64,000 nucleotides of DNA from Synergistota bacterium. Lineage in GTDB: Bacteria > Synergistota > GBS-1. The position numbers were made by a program, and so were the translations under genes. The notes under the pieces are model-generated. The model saw only the letters and a program-made list of their open reading frames with translations. It was not told the DNA's origin and did no database searches. The stretch is from positions 198,771-262,770 of the forward strand of contig JANXBX010000001.1 of the NCBI GenBank assembly GCA_025060595.1, in the 5' to 3' direction. This document shows positions 23,421 through 30,170 of the stretch, one piece after another. The first letter of the stretch is position 1. The number at the start of each line of letters is the position of its first letter.

Positions 23421-24583
23421 CAGTTGAAGAAGAGTTTACTATATATGAGGGCACCCCTTATCACGTTGGTTTTCCAGATGTGGAAAAAGCTCCCAATGGA
23501 GACATAATAGTTGTATTTAGATTGGGAAGTGCACACGTTTGGGGAAGAGACGGAAAGATATACTTATCAAGAAGCAAGGACAAGGGCAAAACCTGGGAAA
23601 CAAAAGAAGCTCTCCATATACCAGGAAGATTTATCAAATATGAAGGAGAATACAGGCTTCTTTCCGATGATAGGGATCCCTCTATTAAAGCCCTCTCAAA
23701 TGGGAAAATGATATTAAGCTGGTTTCACTGGGGAGAAGGAGACAGAGATAATCCAACCAGCTCGATTTATATATCTATAAGCAATGATAATGGAGAAACA
23801 TGGGAAGATCCACGCTTAGTCTTTTTTAACGGAGCAACATCAGACAAGATACTGGAAGCAGAAAAGGGTCTTCTTTTTCTTCCAGCTTATGGAACATTAA
23901 GTGAAAGTTACTCATCAGCATTTCTTATAATAAGCGAAAACTATGGGGAAACTTGGGAGGAAAAACCGATAGTTATAGTTAATGGAAACAAATTTAGAAT
24001 AAACTTCTACGAACCAGCAATAGCTAAGGTAAATGAAAAAGAGCTTATTTGTGTCTTAAGAACAGACATAGGACCCTTATACTTGTCTCGATCCAAAGAT
24101 AACGGAGAGACATGGAGCGAACCTGAGCCATTACCTTTCTACGGGCATGCACCTCATTTACTTAAGCTAATTAACGGAGACTTAATCTTGAGTTTCAGAG
24201 ATGTGGAACTATATTTCACAGAAAAATGGTTCTGGGAAAAGCTCCTTTACAACTTAGGACTAAGAGAAGAAAATCCCTCCTCTCCATTTCCTAAGGGTGA
24301 GCTTCTTCCTGAAACTACAGTAATAGTCAAAGCTTCTCCCCCAGAATACAACTTTAAAAATAGCGAAAAGAAAATAATATATAAACCAAAGGGATATATA
24401 ATGGAAAATGGGGATATCCTCTTTGGAGATTCGGGATATCCTTCAGCGATTGAGCTTGAGGATAATAAGATTCTCTTTGTTTTATACGAAGCCCCTTACG
24501 GATATAGAGGGAAATACAGCCCTTGGAGCAGAATAATAGGAATAAAGATAGAAATAGGAGAACCCGGGAGAGGTGATAAATAA
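23417..24583 (+). CDS. BNR/Asp-box sialidase-fold protein, cytoplasmic
   Basis: A 388-residue predicted six-bladed beta-propeller. Four Asp boxes are visible: SKDKGKTW (53-60), [16 protein letters not shown] and SKDNGETW. An early [14 protein letters not shown] and [17 protein letters not shown] with an arginine-aspartate pair recall the sialidase superfamily. There is no signal peptide, so a true exosialidase acting on extracellular glycans is doubtful. It overlaps metH by 4 bp (ATGA), which is an unexpected operon partner. Role unknown; glycoside hydrolase or a non-catalytic propeller are both possible. Confidence 0.78.
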
Positions 24584-24584
24584 A

Positions 24585-25451
24585 ATGTATAAAGGTGTAA
24601 TTTTTGTCGGAGGAGGAAAGGGCGCCTTAAGTTTGCTCAAGCAATTTAAAAAACTAAACCTAAATATATCTGGAGTAATGGATGTAAGACCAGATGCTCC
24701 AGCGGTACTCGAAGCTAAAAAATATGGCATATTCACAACTACTAAGCTAGATGAGCTTTTGTCCCGTCCTCATGACCTAATAATAGAAGTAACTGGAAAA
24801 GAAGAGGTAGTAGAAGAAGTGGAAAGAAAAAGAGCGCCTCACGTAAGCTTGATTAAATCAAAAGATGCAAGATTCATATGGGATATAATAGAGCGCGAAG
24901 AGAAAGAAAAGGAGCTATTAATAGAGCAAATAAAACTTCTAAGCGAAACAAAAGGAAGTATAGAATACTCTCTACCAGCTGTTTTAAAACTTTCGGAAAC
25001 GTTACCTAAAGAAACAGAGGAAGTTAAAAACGTATCTACATTTCTAACAAGCAGAATAGAAAATCTTATAAACGAAGCTGAAAAGCTCAACGGTATAATT
25101 AAATCTATACAAGGAATAGCAAAACAGACTAAAATGATAGGTCTTAATGCATCCATTGAGGCAGCAAGAGCAGGAGAATTGGGTAGAGGCTTCGCCGTTG
25201 TCGCAAGCGAAGTAAGCAAACTTGCAGACCAAAGCTCAAGTTCAGCCGGTGAGATATCAAACACCTTAAACTATTTGAAACAAAATATATTATCTCTCAA
25301 AGATCCTGTAGAAAACATAAAAGAAACCATTGAAAGATGCAATATCCTAGCAGAGGAACTTAAATCTACCGCAACTACACTAAAGAATGCCATAACAGCG
25401 CTTCTTCAAATAGAGGAAAAGCTTTTAACCTTGACCAGAAACGGAGCTTAA
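24585..25451 (+). CDS. Soluble chemoreceptor-like protein with N-terminal Rossmann-like domain
   Basis: A 288-residue protein. Residues 1-75 begin [21 protein letters not shown] and look like a nucleotide-binding Rossmann half-domain (GGGKGA loop, then [11 protein letters not shown]). A coiled segment follows, then a methyl-accepting chemotaxis signalling hairpin with tip [14 protein letters not shown] and [16 protein letters not shown]. There are no membrane helices. The design suggests a cytoplasmic receptor that reads a metabolite or NAD-like ligand and passes it to CheA/CheW. No other chemotaxis genes are in the window. ATG at 24585 follows AGAGGTG with 9-nt spacing, better than the GTG at 24573. 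A tRNA-Pro promoter lies inside its 3' end. Confidence 0.82.
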
Positions 25452-25552: not shown

Positions 25553-26308
25553 TTAATAACAATCTACATAAATAGTGCTACCTTGAACAGAAACTACATT
25601 AATTGGTAGACCAGCTACCTTCAAGCTCTGGGCAACACTATTTACATCCCCAGAGTAGAGGAACTCTATGACCGCCTGTCCTCCACCATATGAGGTTATT
25701 CTGACGTTTCGAGCACCAGGAAATCCTCTAATCTTCTCATAAACGCTATTAACCAAGCCATAGTCAGAAGCACCCCTTAAAACAACACGAGCTATTCCAG
25801 AAAAATCCCCTGGTTGTTGAGCTCCTATTAAAAAGGAAGCAGCTTTTGACGCCGCATCTATAAGAGCCTTACGTTGTGCTTCTTCACCAGTATAACCAAC
25901 CGCTTTAGCAGAAAAGGCTTGACTCAACAAAAAACGAGCATCCTTTGCCCTATAAGCTTGGATGGAAAGAGAAGCTGTAGCTGTGTATAAGTTAAACTCG
26001 TTTAAACGCGGCTCCTCAAGCTGAGCTCTACCTCTAACAAAATATGCGATATTATAGGTACTTCCTAACTTCATTATTGCTTCAGCATTACCTTGAAGAG
26101 CAAGTATAGCCGCTTGACTTTTCTTTATACTCTCAAGCTGATCCCTTTCAACCACATTATAACCCGCATTTATAAGGGCTTCCATAACTTTCGACTCAGC
26201 AAGAGAGTTATTAAATATAACCGCAACTCTTCCATCCCTAGGAAGAGAAGCAAAGGCCTCCCCTACAAAAGCAAAAAGAAAAACTAAGAGGATTATTAGT
26301 CTTCTCAT
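25553..26308 (-). CDS. Exported FlgT-like protein lacking the N-terminal domain
   Basis: A 251-residue protein with a signal peptide (MRRLIILLVFLFAFVGEAFA). The mature part matches, by eye, the middle and C-terminal parts of the 28173-29321 protein. It has a CsgG/FlgT-middle-like segment (VAVIFNN...EALINAGYNVVERDQLE) and a tail with ARVVLRG, IRGFPGARNVRITS and VAQSLKVAGLPINVVS. It is the last gene of the five-gene envelope operon and abuts the CsgG-like gene by a 1-base overlap at 26308. Probably periplasmic. Function unknown; it may pair with its longer paralogue. Confidence 0.72.
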   Translation of the reverse strand: MRRLIILLVFLFAFVGEAFASLPRDGRVAVIFNNSLAESKVMEALINAGYNVVERDQLESIKKSQAAILALQGNAEAIMKLGSTYNIAYFVRGRAQLEEPRLNEFNLYTATASLSIQAYRAKDARFLLSQAFSAKAVGYTGEEAQRKALIDAASKAASFLIGAQQPGDFSGIARVVLRGASDYGLVNSVYEKIRGFPGARNVRITSYGGGQAVIEFLYSGDVNSVAQSLKVAGLPINVVSVQGSTIYVDCY

Positions 26309-27711
26309 TACATAGCACCTACTTCCTTAAGCTTACTCTTTACAGGCTCATAGTTAGGATTAATAGTAAGCGCCTTTTTCCACCACTTTATTCCCTCGTC
26401 TTTCCTTCCCATTTCGTAATATACTCTGCCTAACCAATAGCAAGCTACATAGTTACCATTATAAGCATCAAAAGCAAGCTTATAGTTCTGAATTGCAAGA
26501 GAATAATTTCCCTTAGAATAATTGTAGTAACCAGCTTTGTGCAACCTTATAAGATTAGTTTTTAAACCTTGATCTATAGGCCATAGCTCTATTACCTCTA
26601 TAGTTGTCCCCGTATTAAGTATGGAGCTACTCTGAGATGGTGGTGGAGGCGGTGGCGGCGGTGGTGGCTGAGTACCTCCTCCTTGCTGTGATGGCGGTTG
26701 TGAAGATGGCGGAGGTGGCGGAAGTACACTTCCAGCAGAGCTTGGAGTAGTTTCAGGGCCAACTGTTAACCTTGGCCTTAGCTTTATATTCTCTATAGCA
26801 GAAGCATCAAATATTGGCTCGACTTTATCTCCTCTCATGACTCCCTTACCCTTGATTACACTTGCTATGGAATATTGGGGGAAAACCTCCTCAACTTGAA
26901 GAATAGCTATATAATACTTTTCAACACCAAGAAGCTCTCCTCTAATGCCACGTATAGGCTCACCCTCGATATAAACTGCAAAATAACTTCCAACCGTTAC
27001 ACCCGCATTAGCTTCTCCTGCATCTATATAAACTCTGTTCCCCTCATCCCTTATCACATGATATATCATTTTCCCACCACGTGCTCTCATGGCCCCGATT
27101 TTTTTAACTATCTTTTCTATACATTGACGTGTAGCAGCAGCAAGTATTCCTTCCTCCTCGCTTTGGCCATACAGTAATCCCCCAAAGGCTATCCCACCAG
27201 CACTACGAGTAGCCTGACCTGTTTCTTTAGCCACAAGTAATATTTCACCAGTCTCCACACTTATCATTCTGATGTCTAAAGTAACATTAGCTTCTGACTC
27301 CCCTACAGCTATCCCGCCAAGCTGAGGAATAGGAATAATTCCTCCCTTTTTCTTCAAAGTAAATTGAGTTATGCTACCAGTTATAATAGCTTCGACTCCC
27401 AAAAGCTTCCCCAATTGAGCAGCAGTAGAAGCATCAACTAATCCCGCTTGAGCAAGCTTATGTTCCCTCGCGATCGCCTCTAAACGGCTTCTTTCTACTA
27501 TAGAGAACATCTGCGTTTTCCAAAGCTCGGTTATAAACATATCAGTTATCGCTCTTCTCACAGCTTCAACCTGGGAACTTTCAGGTCCTGTTACATTATT
27601 ACTAAAATCTACAACAGCGATTCTCATTTTATCAGAAGCTCCAAAAGCAACGGAAACCAAACAACACAGTACGCTAAAAATAATAATCACCCATAAACCA
27701 AATTTCTTCAT
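26308..27711 (-). CDS. CsgG-domain protein with proline-rich linker and TPR
   Basis: A 467-residue exported protein. A signal peptide (1 to about 24, ending AFGAS) precedes a CsgG-like domain (about 28-210). That domain has RIAVVDFSNN, VERSRLEAIAREHKL and AQLGKLLGVEAIITGSI, the last being the hallmark GVDAIITG segment. Residues 215-320 form a beta-rich region. Residues about 325-365 are a Pro/Ser/Gly linker with runs of up to ten prolines. The C-terminus (about 385-465) is a tetratricopeptide region (GNYSLAIQNYKLAFDAY, ACYWLGRVYYEMGRKDEG). It lacks an obvious lipobox cysteine. CsgG proteins form outer-membrane pores; this one could be a periplasmic or outer-membrane scaffold. Confidence 0.8.
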   Translation of the reverse strand: MKKFGLWVIIIFSVLCCLVSVAFGASDKMRIAVVDFSNNVTGPESSQVEAVRRAITDMFITELWKTQMFSIVERSRLEAIAREHKLAQAGLVDASTAAQLGKLLGVEAIITGSITQFTLKKKGGIIPIPQLGGIAVGESEANVTLDIRMISVETGEILLVAKETGQATRSAGGIAFGGLLYGQSEEEGILAAATRQCIEKIVKKIGAMRARGGKMIYHVIRDEGNRVYIDAGEANAGVTVGSYFAVYIEGEPIRGIRGELLGVEKYYIAILQVEEVFPQYSIASVIKGKGVMRGDKVEPIFDASAIENIKLRPRLTVGPETTPSSAGSVLPPPPPSSQPPSQQGGGTQPPPPPPPPPPSQSSSILNTGTTIEVIELWPIDQGLKTNLIRLHKAGYYNYSKGNYSLAIQNYKLAFDAYNGNYVACYWLGRVYYEMGRKDEGIKWWKKALTINPNYEPVKSKLKEVGAM

Positions 27712-27729
27712 AACCGTTACCCTCCCCTC

Positions 27730-28176
27730 CTACTGAACCTCTACACTATACTCTAACAGTTCCTTTAAAGGTATCTTCAAAACTATTCTATAAAACTTTC
27801 CATCAAAAATTTCCTCAGTCACATAACCTCCTCCAACTACACCCTTTATCTTCACACTTTTATACCCCTTAGGAAGAGGATAATTAAGCTGATATAAAAG
27901 AAAGAGAGCATTTCTTTGGGCTATTAACACTGCCGCTCTTCGGGCAAGAAGCTTAGCTTGTGCCTCCGTTTCATACTTTTCTGGAACCATTCCTATACCT
28001 TTTACAATAACCATCTTCTCTTCCCAGTCTATGCTACCCCATGGAAAACCTTCCAAGGCAAGATTACCCTCATTAAATCTTCTTAAAAGCTCAATGTCTA
28101 CATTGTAAGGAACAGCATAGACTGGGAAAGAAAAAAATAAAAATAAAGGGAGAAGGGTAATAACTACCTTCTTCAA
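27730..28176 (-). CDS. Small exported LPP20-like protein
   Basis: A 148-residue protein with a signal peptide (MKKVVITLLPLFLFFSFPVYA). The core GSIDWEEKMVIVKGIGM, then AQAKLLARRAAVLIAQRNAL, follows the LPP20/DUF pattern of a strand followed by a long helix rich in A, R and L. The same two blocks occur in the 29328-30170 protein, so the two are paralogues. It overlaps the upstream FlgT-like gene by 4 bp and lies in the middle of the envelope operon. No lipobox is visible. Function unknown. Confidence 0.72.
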   Translation of the reverse strand: MKKVVITLLPLFLFFSFPVYAVPYNVDIELLRRFNEGNLALEGFPWGSIDWEEKMVIVKGIGMVPEKYETEAQAKLLARRAAVLIAQRNALFLLYQLNYPLPKGYKSVKIKGVVGGGYVTEEIFDGKFYRIVLKIPLKELLEYSVEVQ

Positions 28177-29321
28177 ATACCTCCCCCTCCTGGTTTTAAC
28201 TTACAAATTATATTATTTGCTGTAAAGTTTACAATCTCCAAACCTAGCTCCTCAAGACGAACCGCTAAGTCTTCAGAATTACCTTCAAAATTAACATCCA
28301 TTACAAGGTTACCATCGGTAAAGCTTCTCTGATATACCCCAACAACCCCCTTAAACTTCTCTATCTCACCTTTGATCTTACGAGCCTGAGTAAAGTTTAT
28401 TCCTTCTACCCTAACCTGTATTGTCCTTCCAGCGATTCCCTTACCCGTCTGGCCAAGCATAGCATAGGCAACTTCATAAATGAGCTTCTTCGCTGCCTCA
28501 GTAGCAGCCTCCCTTAAGGCCTTCATGGCAGCATCATCAACGCTTAAACCAATACTTCTAACAGAAGGTATAGCAACCCCTAATATCTTCCCGGTCTGGG
28601 TTATTATGGCCTCTATGCTAAGTTGAGCCTGAACTCCATAAAGTTTTTGACCTGAAACTACTTGAGATGTATAAGGAACCGCCATAGCCTTACCGGATAT
28701 AACCACATCGGCATCATGTCTTTTAGCAAGCTCTATCAATCTAGATTTGTCTCCGGTCAAGGCTGCTTCTGTTGCTTCTCTACGCCTGTTAACGTCCACC
28801 TGACCAGGATCAACTATATGATATCCAGCATTTTGAAAGATACTTAATATAGTAGACTCACTAACTGAGAGAAAAGGGGTTTTCCCATCTATGTTTTCAG
28901 CTATACAAACCATTAAAACTGGATTACCCAAGGTATCAATGACCACAGGTCCTAAAACATCGTTTAACTTAGTTAAGGCAACTGTCGCTTTCATTTTAAC
29001 TTTTATCATCCCGTCTTCTTCCCATCTACTAAGGACCTTATAGTCAGTGACGAGCCCCTTAGACTGAGCCATAACTTTATCTCTTATAACCTGAAAGTTT
29101 TCCATTTCCGTTATTCCTTGAATTAAAACCCCCAACCCTTGCTCTATAGCATTTCTAAAAGCATCCCTTTTCGCCTCTTCAAAGGCCCTGTTTTTATCTC
29201 CCCCTATAATAGCCCCTACTCCCTCTACATCAAGCGTAACACTACCTTTTTCTTGCCCAACTACCACAAACGGACAAGCTAACAGAAGTGATAATAAAAG
29301 AAAAGGTAGTAAGAGCCTCAT
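28173..29321 (-). CDS. Exported FlgT-like protein, three domains
   Basis: A 382-residue exported protein with signal peptide 1-22. The N-terminal region (about 25-115) has RAFEEAKRDAFRNAIEQGLG and a DYKVLSRWEEDGMIKVKMKA strand pair. This is the FlgT-N layout. A middle region (about 125-290) has ILSIFQNAGYHIVDPGQVD and LAKRHDADVVISGKA, and a C-terminal region has VRVEGINFTQARKIKGEIEK and VRLEELGLEIVNF. FlgT forms the outer-membrane H ring of sheathed flagella in Vibrio. No flagellar genes are present here, so the role may differ. It is the second gene of the operon, 6 bp after the first. Confidence 0.75.
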   Translation of the reverse strand: MRLLLPFLLLSLLLACPFVVVGQEKGSVTLDVEGVGAIIGGDKNRAFEEAKRDAFRNAIEQGLGVLIQGITEMENFQVIRDKVMAQSKGLVTDYKVLSRWEEDGMIKVKMKATVALTKLNDVLGPVVIDTLGNPVLMVCIAENIDGKTPFLSVSESTILSIFQNAGYHIVDPGQVDVNRRREATEAALTGDKSRLIELAKRHDADVVISGKAMAVPYTSQVVSGQKLYGVQAQLSIEAIITQTGKILGVAIPSVRSIGLSVDDAAMKALREAATEAAKKLIYEVAYAMLGQTGKGIAGRTIQVRVEGINFTQARKIKGEIEKFKGVVGVYQRSFTDGNLVMDVNFEGNSEDLAVRLEELGLEIVNFTANNIICKLKPGGGGI

Positions 29322-29327
29322 TCAGGC

Positions 29328-30170
29328 TCACCTTTTCACCACTATAACATTGCAAGCGGCTCTAAAGTCATAGTTATTATTTCTTATAGCATCTGCATCC
29401 TTCTGAGAAATAACCACATCTACATTATTAGGAGAAACGGTTTGAACAGCCTTAGCCACAAGAGGCCTAGGACCCACCCTTGGATCGCCCGTTGCCCAGT
29501 TTATGTTAGTTTGATAGGCGGCCATACCGCTTGCCATGAACCTTTCCCTATCAACATGCTGAAGAGAGTAAACTTCCTTTCCATTGGGATCCAAAATTCT
29601 AAAGGTAGTAGCAGGAATCAAAGGCACTTCACGCGCATCAAGAACAAGCCCAGTGTAGTTCGCCTTAGGTGGGGGTGGTGATACCGGTTTGGATTGGATA
29701 CCCATGGTATCAGCAACAATCTTCCTCACTTTCTTAAGATATATTCTTCCCCAAACGGTGTAAATCTCCCCATCCCACTTTTCCCTAACTATCTCAACAC
29801 CTTTAATCCATCCTTCCACTTCGCTTCTCACAACATCGCTTTTAACCATAAAGTTTTCCATAAGAGTCTGACTATCTATTCTAACTCCTTTTATAGTCTC
29901 GAGTAAGTTTCTCTGAAGGTCTAAAATAGCTCCCCTCTTAGCTAGGAGTTTCCCTTGAGCTTTATTAACAGCAGTAGTCGGGGGAACAGCAGAACCCGAA
30001 GCCTCAACATAGTCCTCCGTCCAGTTAATGGTTCCGTGAGCCGTCTCTTCTATAACCTTTTCCATTTCAGCTCCCGCTTGAGCCTGAATTCCGGAAGATT
30101 GAGCGAAAGCCCCAAGTGCCATAATCCCTAATCCTAAACATACCATTAGCCATCCTATGGGCTTCCTCAT
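29328..30170 (-). CDS. Exported LPP20-family protein with C-terminal extension
   Basis: A 280-residue protein with a signal peptide ending near GAFAQ. Residues about 45-150 are LPP20-like: GTINWTEDYVEASGSA, AQGKLLAKRGAILDLQRNLL and a final KWDGEIYTVWGRIYLKKV strand pair. After a proline-rich break (VSPPPPK), a second domain of about 110 residues begins YTGLVLDAREVPLIPATTF. It repeats the text RILDPNGKEVYS and ends DFRAACNVIVVKR. This domain recalls secreted LPP20-associated domains of unknown fold. It is the first gene of the envelope operon. Confidence 0.72.
   Translation of the reverse strand: MRKPIGWLMVCLGLGIMALGAFAQSSGIQAQAGAEMEKVIEETAHGTINWTEDYVEASGSAVPPTTAVNKAQGKLLAKRGAILDLQRNLLETIKGVRIDSQTLMENFMVKSDVVRSEVEGWIKGVEIVREKWDGEIYTVWGRIYLKKVRKIVADTMGIQSKPVSPPPPKANYTGLVLDAREVPLIPATTFRILDPNGKEVYSLQHVDRERFMASGMAAYQTNINWATGDPRVGPRPLVAKAVQTVSPNNVDVVISQKDADAIRNNNYDFRAACNVIVVKR

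Follow-up and report, generated by a model that had tools for sequence, protein, structure and literature searches.

A conserved gene cluster of FlgP-, FlgT- and CsgG-like exported proteins in the Synergistota, probably a flagellar collar of the H-ring or basal-disk type

Flagellar H-rings and basal disks have been described in Proteobacteria and Campylobacterota. The Vibrio proteins FlgO, FlgP and FlgT make up the H-ring, which surrounds the L and P rings, aids the flagellum in crossing the outer membrane and gives support to the assembly of stators (PMC7990780). The basal disk of Campylobacter is built from FlgP rings, whose formation goes together with an insert that follows the SHS2 helix (PMC12222027). 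Also relevant here is Treponema pallidum Tp0624, a protein of unknown function whose D2 domain was reported as a new fold without structural relatives (PMC5104382).

The window analyzed here is a 64,000 bp stretch of contig JANXBX010000001.1 (assembly GCA_025060595.1) of a Synergistota bacterium. It contains five open reading frames on the minus strand, with the transcription order E-D-C-B-A at coordinates 30170 down to 25553, which resemble the proteins of these systems domain by domain as follows (window coordinates).

29328-30170, minus strand: gene E, exported protein resembling FlgP (LPP20/SHS2), with one more domain at its C-terminal end, 280 aa (ORF, profile, structure)
29700-30053, minus strand: E SHS2-like (FlgP/LPP20) domain, residues ~40-157 (profile, structure comparison)
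29811-29888, minus strand: E segment across the FlgP ring-forming hairpin insert, residues ~95-120 (alignment to 9hmf)
29331-29666, minus strand: E C-terminal domain with the Tp0624 D2 fold, residues 169-280 (5jir_B match)
28173-29321, minus strand: gene D, exported FlgT-like protein, 382 aa (ORF, Foldseek)
28977-29240, minus strand: D FlgT_N/SHS2 domain, residues ~28-115 (Pfam FlgT_N in members)
28452-28931, minus strand: D domain of the TolB-N/CsgG/FlgT-M type, residues ~131-290 (structure comparison)
28197-28427, minus strand: D C-terminal beta-alpha-beta-beta-alpha-beta domain, residues ~299-375 (secondary structure of the model; also in A)
27730-28176, minus strand: gene C, small exported SHS2 (FlgP-like) protein with a TTG start and a shorter insert, 148 aa (profile, relation to E)
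26308-27711, minus strand: gene B, exported CsgG-domain protein, 467 aa (ORF, Pfam CsgG 1.7e-36)
27091-27636, minus strand: B CsgG domain, residues 26-207 (Pfam; CsgG structures 7e-8)
26812-27042, minus strand: B FlgT_C/TsaP-like domain, residues ~224-300 (TsaP 3jc8 3.3e-7 with profile)
26617-26775, minus strand: B proline-rich linker, residues ~313-365 (read in the sequence)
26329-26532, minus strand: B TPR region, residues ~394-461 (Pfam)
25553-26308, minus strand: gene A, exported protein that resembles D but lacks its N-terminal domain, 251 aa (ORF, similarity to D)

An earlier note, made from this DNA alone, had described a compact cluster of five exported proteins on one strand, and this is confirmed: the spacings along E-D-C-B-A are +6, -4, +18 and -1 bases, all within the overlaps or gaps of under 20 bp that it gave, and each protein has an N-terminal hydrophobic stretch that is signal-peptide-like (by hydropathy only). 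The single shared promoter that it proposed does not stand. In the cluster region, 9 sigma-70-like sites were counted where shuffling leads one to expect 10.7, so a promoter above chance cannot be claimed, and upstream of E on the same strand lie rsmI-metG-tatD, tatD being 46 bases away from E. Beyond A, and convergent with it, are a tRNA-Pro, which is the one RNA element found in the region, and a receptor-like gene. The latter (24573-25451, plus strand) has an MCP signaling domain (1.1e-27), and its first part resembles a nucleotide-binding fold (NAD_binding_3, weak at 0.032) rather than a membrane sensor; its position facing gene A is kept in genomes G002 and G003. Neither flagellar families nor a curli subunit or helper were found among the neighbors scanned at the locus, and flagellar families are likewise absent from the conserved neighbors of the clusters in other genomes.

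The E profile matches Campylobacter FlgP (9hmf, 3.8e-16), whose chain C is named 'Lipoprotein, putative' in the PDB and is taken as FlgP from the entry title and PMC12222027, and four more chains of FlgP or lipoproteins, the weakest at 0.0012, including 8z5n. The N-terminal part of the E model, which is weaker than the D model (pLDDT 73 vs 82), resembles Lpp20 (5ok8, Z 8.0) and FlgT-N (Z 6.3). C matches FlgP 9hmf by profile at 3e-7 and is 9 residues shorter at the insert, and at the same place E differs in length from 9hmf by one residue only in the profile alignment, in a part of the monomer model that is of low confidence (pLDDT under 50 at residues 96-119). Judged by alignment, the stretch through which FlgP subunits connect into rings has kept its length in E and not in C. 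The likeness to the Campylobacter basal disk (FlgP and FlgQ) thus comprises the profile matches of E and C, the insert length of E and the presence of several FlgP-like paralogues; E differs from Campylobacter FlgP in having no lipobox and in its added domain of the Tp0624-D2 type. That C-terminal domain aligns with 5jir_B with Z 16.0, 1.5 A over 111 residues and 27% identity, and the whole of E aligns with Tp0624 over 278 columns (4.4e-9), Tp0624 having an extra OmpA-like domain. Phylum-wide, the Tp0624 D2 domain occurs as the C-terminal half of E, apart from any OmpA domain.

The best two PDB matches of the D model by Foldseek span nearly the whole chain and are 8z5n_0 (9.2e-11), taken to be FlgT from its length, from the second match and from the LPHT-ring title of its entry, and FlgT 3w1e (5.3e-10). 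VIA-align superimposes D on 3w1e over 247 residues with Z 11.5, covering the N-terminal and middle domains, at an rmsd of 9.7 that in the model corresponds to a different mutual orientation of the two domains; whole-chain TM-scores with FlgT are low (0.27), and the likeness is domain by domain. TolB, CsgG and PelC match the middle domain alone with similar Z, so the middle domain by itself says little, and it is the pairing of N-terminal and middle domains in the model that points to FlgT. Of 23 D members, 17 have a Pfam FlgT_N match (3.7e-9 at best) and none has one to FlgT_C, and the N-terminal domain also gives D a weak profile match to 9hmf (9.5e-4). The NCBIfam profile of LipL46, which is a Leptospira protein, matches D residues 29-333 at 3.4e-11 with 42 bits against an equivalog cut-off of 400, which suggests from sequence that LipL46 may itself be FlgT-like; LipL46 is a lipoprotein and D apparently is not. 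In four D genes (L047, L048, L050 and L053), a second copy of the C-terminal domain is present where gene C is missing or unrecognized.

The CsgG domain with proline linker and TPR reported in the earlier note is present in B, which gives the only CsgG match in the genome of the window. Between the CsgG domain and the linker lies a part resembling FlgT_C and TsaP. Pfam FlgT_C is found in 5 of 16 B members, and some members also match FlgT_M below its cut-off. The names FlgT and LPP20 that the earlier note gave to the other proteins need a qualification, since the window's own proteins stay under the Pfam cut-offs: E has 12.8 bits for LPP20 (gathering score 25.9), C has no LPP20 match, D has 17.6 bits for FlgT_N (gathering score 28.8), and B reaches only 0.092 for FlgT_C. 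Orthologues and structures make the assignment firm, with FlgT_N above its cut-off in the D orthologue L053 (33.7 vs 28.8 bits) and FlgT_C in the B orthologue L051 (32.5 vs 27 bits). No FlgO family match was found in any of the five proteins by Pfam up to E 1.

That the cluster was built by duplication, as the earlier note had it, is supported by BLASTP as well as by profiles. E and C, its two LPP20-like proteins, match at 1.0e-9 in single-sequence BLASTP and at 98.5% in profile-profile comparison; its two FlgT-like proteins, D and the shorter A that is without the N-terminal domain, match at 3.1e-13 and 99.4%. As judged from sequence, both duplications are far above chance. Comparing profiles among the five also brought out links that it had not listed, as the N-terminal domain of D is related to E (96.8%) and to C, and the CsgG domain of B has a relative in A (96.7%); D against B is not significant by profile-profile comparison. 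The cluster is therefore composed of two blocks, SHS2 (E, C and the N-terminal domain of D) and TolB/CsgG (the middle of D, A and B), and since FlgT_N lies on D and FlgT_C on B orthologues, the FlgT domains are divided, N-terminal and middle on D and CsgG/middle and C-terminal on B.

Overall, the cluster is similar to the Vibrio H-ring (8z5n, 3w1e) in that FlgP-like SHS2 proteins and a protein with the FlgT N-terminal and middle domains in the same order are encoded together, exported and found in flagellated diderms. It differs in carrying FlgT_C on B and not on D, in its three SHS2-bearing proteins, in the proline linker and TPR that B adds, in a locus apart from flagellar genes, and in having neither a FlgO-family match in Pfam nor conserved lipoboxes. 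Lipobox-like motifs were seen in 0 of 23 E homologues, 0 of 18 C homologues and 0 of 42 B homologues, and the missing lipoboxes are the clearest departure from FlgP and FlgO.

Homologues were taken from relatives in the same phylum, where the gene set recurs, as the earlier note had suggested checking, with its order kept across many families. E-D-C followed by A and B, in either order, is found in families f1, f3, f4, f8 and f11 and in genome G183 of f7, sometimes joined by a TPR gene or by another CsgG gene. In f6, E is displaced to beside A and D-C stands alone; some f4 genomes have D without a recognizable neighbor C and with a second copy of the C-terminal domain; and f2 has the B-A pair by itself in its genera g6 and g16, while f8 has such a pair as an extra copy. 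The D tree follows the family groupings in most places, and in the phylum-wide searches all 67 E-positive genomes are also D-positive. A search of genome contigs with D alone found one relative only, a MAG named 'bacterium GBS-1', and the LipL46 match is the only lead to relatives of the cluster outside the phylum. We also note that CsgG-domain proteins have multiplied in G089 (up to nine matches) and other g8 genomes, and that G045, G046, G053 and G130 (genus g26) lack fliF and FlgH and have CsgG genes in tandem, a hint that the B-type protein may be used independently of a flagellum.

The earlier note saw no flagellar genes alongside the cluster, which is correct for the locus and not for the genome. 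None of the five flagellar marker families tested is on the window's own contig, and all five are on other contigs: fliF and flhA on C15, flgH on C13, five rod-protein matches on C13 and C15, and four flagellin matches on C3, C6 and C14. When a genome is counted as flagellated by fliF, FlgH or (in the few checked) FlhA, 132 of the 185 genomes of the phylum qualify. D is present in 86 of these 132 and in 3 of the other 53 (p 9e-15), a count that includes weak matches, several of them really A, and that becomes 74 versus 2 after their removal; E is found in 65 flagellated and 2 non-flagellated genomes of the 185 (p 3e-10). Shuffling of labels within families gave 61 expected overlaps against the 74 observed, a value reached in 0 of 20000 shuffles; within genera, the variation is too small to resolve the association of D with the flagellum. 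CsgG has a looser tie to the flagellum than E and D (95 flagellated genomes vs 12 without flagellar markers), and the B-A part may therefore have a role elsewhere as well. D is absent from 46 flagellated genomes; the set is therefore not essential for a flagellum. Cluster genes are present and all five marker families absent in G074 and G183, and G142 is a further, weak exception. The D protein of G074 is 79% identical to that of its flagellated genus-mate G029, and that of G183 groups with family f8 (72% identity); contamination or transfer is possible in G183, and G074 stands as an exception.

From the FlgP and FlgT parts and the near-confinement to flagellated genomes, the cluster is most likely the phylum's ring and not an unknown machine. 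We consider it probable, at roughly two chances in three, that it encodes the phylum's own outer-membrane-side flagellar collar, of the H-ring/basal-disk type around the L and P rings, rearranged and apparently not lipid-anchored. The outer-membrane complex of an undescribed kind put forward in the earlier note is probably wrong, because E-D-C tracks the flagellum and the closest solved structures are flagellar outer-ring proteins, and an H-ring/basal-disk variant fits better. There is a modest chance that the set is instead a general outer-membrane complex, a CsgG-fold ring with SHS2 accessories that would act in secretion or envelope maintenance independently of the flagellum, with a distribution that follows lifestyle. 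The two genomes with E-D-C-type genes in which flagellar markers were not found, the 12 marker-free genomes with CsgG, the solitary B-A pairs and the middle fold common to the outer-membrane proteins CsgG, TolB, LpoB and PelC would all agree with this, but genomes without flagellar markers hardly ever carry E or D, and the solved structures that come closest to these two proteins are flagellar. Somewhat more doubtful is a reading by which the set would be an outer-membrane machine in its own right, one that, to go by G074 and G183, can function where there is no flagellum, with the CsgG ring of B as an export or anchoring pore and with flagellar H-rings having arisen from it or in parallel to it.

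The two known systems that B brings to mind were both rejected. It is very improbable that B is a curli-like CsgG pore that exports a fibre subunit: its CsgG domain (1.7e-36; 7e-8 to CsgG structures) is shared with the curli pore, but the CsgG lipobox is absent, B has a FlgT_C-like domain, linker and TPR that curli CsgG does not, no curli partner was seen among the neighbors scanned, and many proteins that do not secrete share the CsgG fold. Moreover, the profile match to CsgG structures reaches no further than profile position 160 and leaves out the second membrane hairpin, which we take to lie beyond that position. Equally little credence can be given to a TsaP-like collar at a type IV pilus secretin. 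The FlgT_C/TsaP-like middle part of B matches TsaP (3jc8) at 3.3e-7, and secretins are available in 174 of 185 genomes; this is so nearly universal that they are uninformative and too common to test specificity as a control, the LysM domain of TsaP is absent from B (Pfam), and the patchy distribution of E and D is explained by the flagellum and not by a near-universal secretin.

Homology, likely export signals (hydropathy), conservation and co-occurrence are what the comparisons show; for the flagellar collar, we infer location, ring formation and every functional step. The five proteins would be exported through Sec and assemble in the periplasm around the L and P rings, beneath the outer membrane. 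E, perhaps together with the N-terminal domain of D, would be the ring former, C might cap or regulate the E ring, and D, like FlgT, would be the joint between this ring and the L and P rings. B and A may add a CsgG-type ring, from which the proline linker and TPR of B could reach inward to a partner. Because there is no conserved lipobox, the ring would be held by the L and P rings or by B and not by lipid anchors. Such a collar would help the flagellum through the outer membrane and brace the motor or the stators.

If this is correct, collars of the FlgP/FlgT type would be older or more mobile than thought, as they would be present in many families of a distant diderm phylum. The domains of FlgT are here distributed over two proteins, and a CsgG-fold protein is a likely part of the ring. 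The cluster also offers a testable set of genes in a phylum for which the literature searched gave no description of a flagellar motor.
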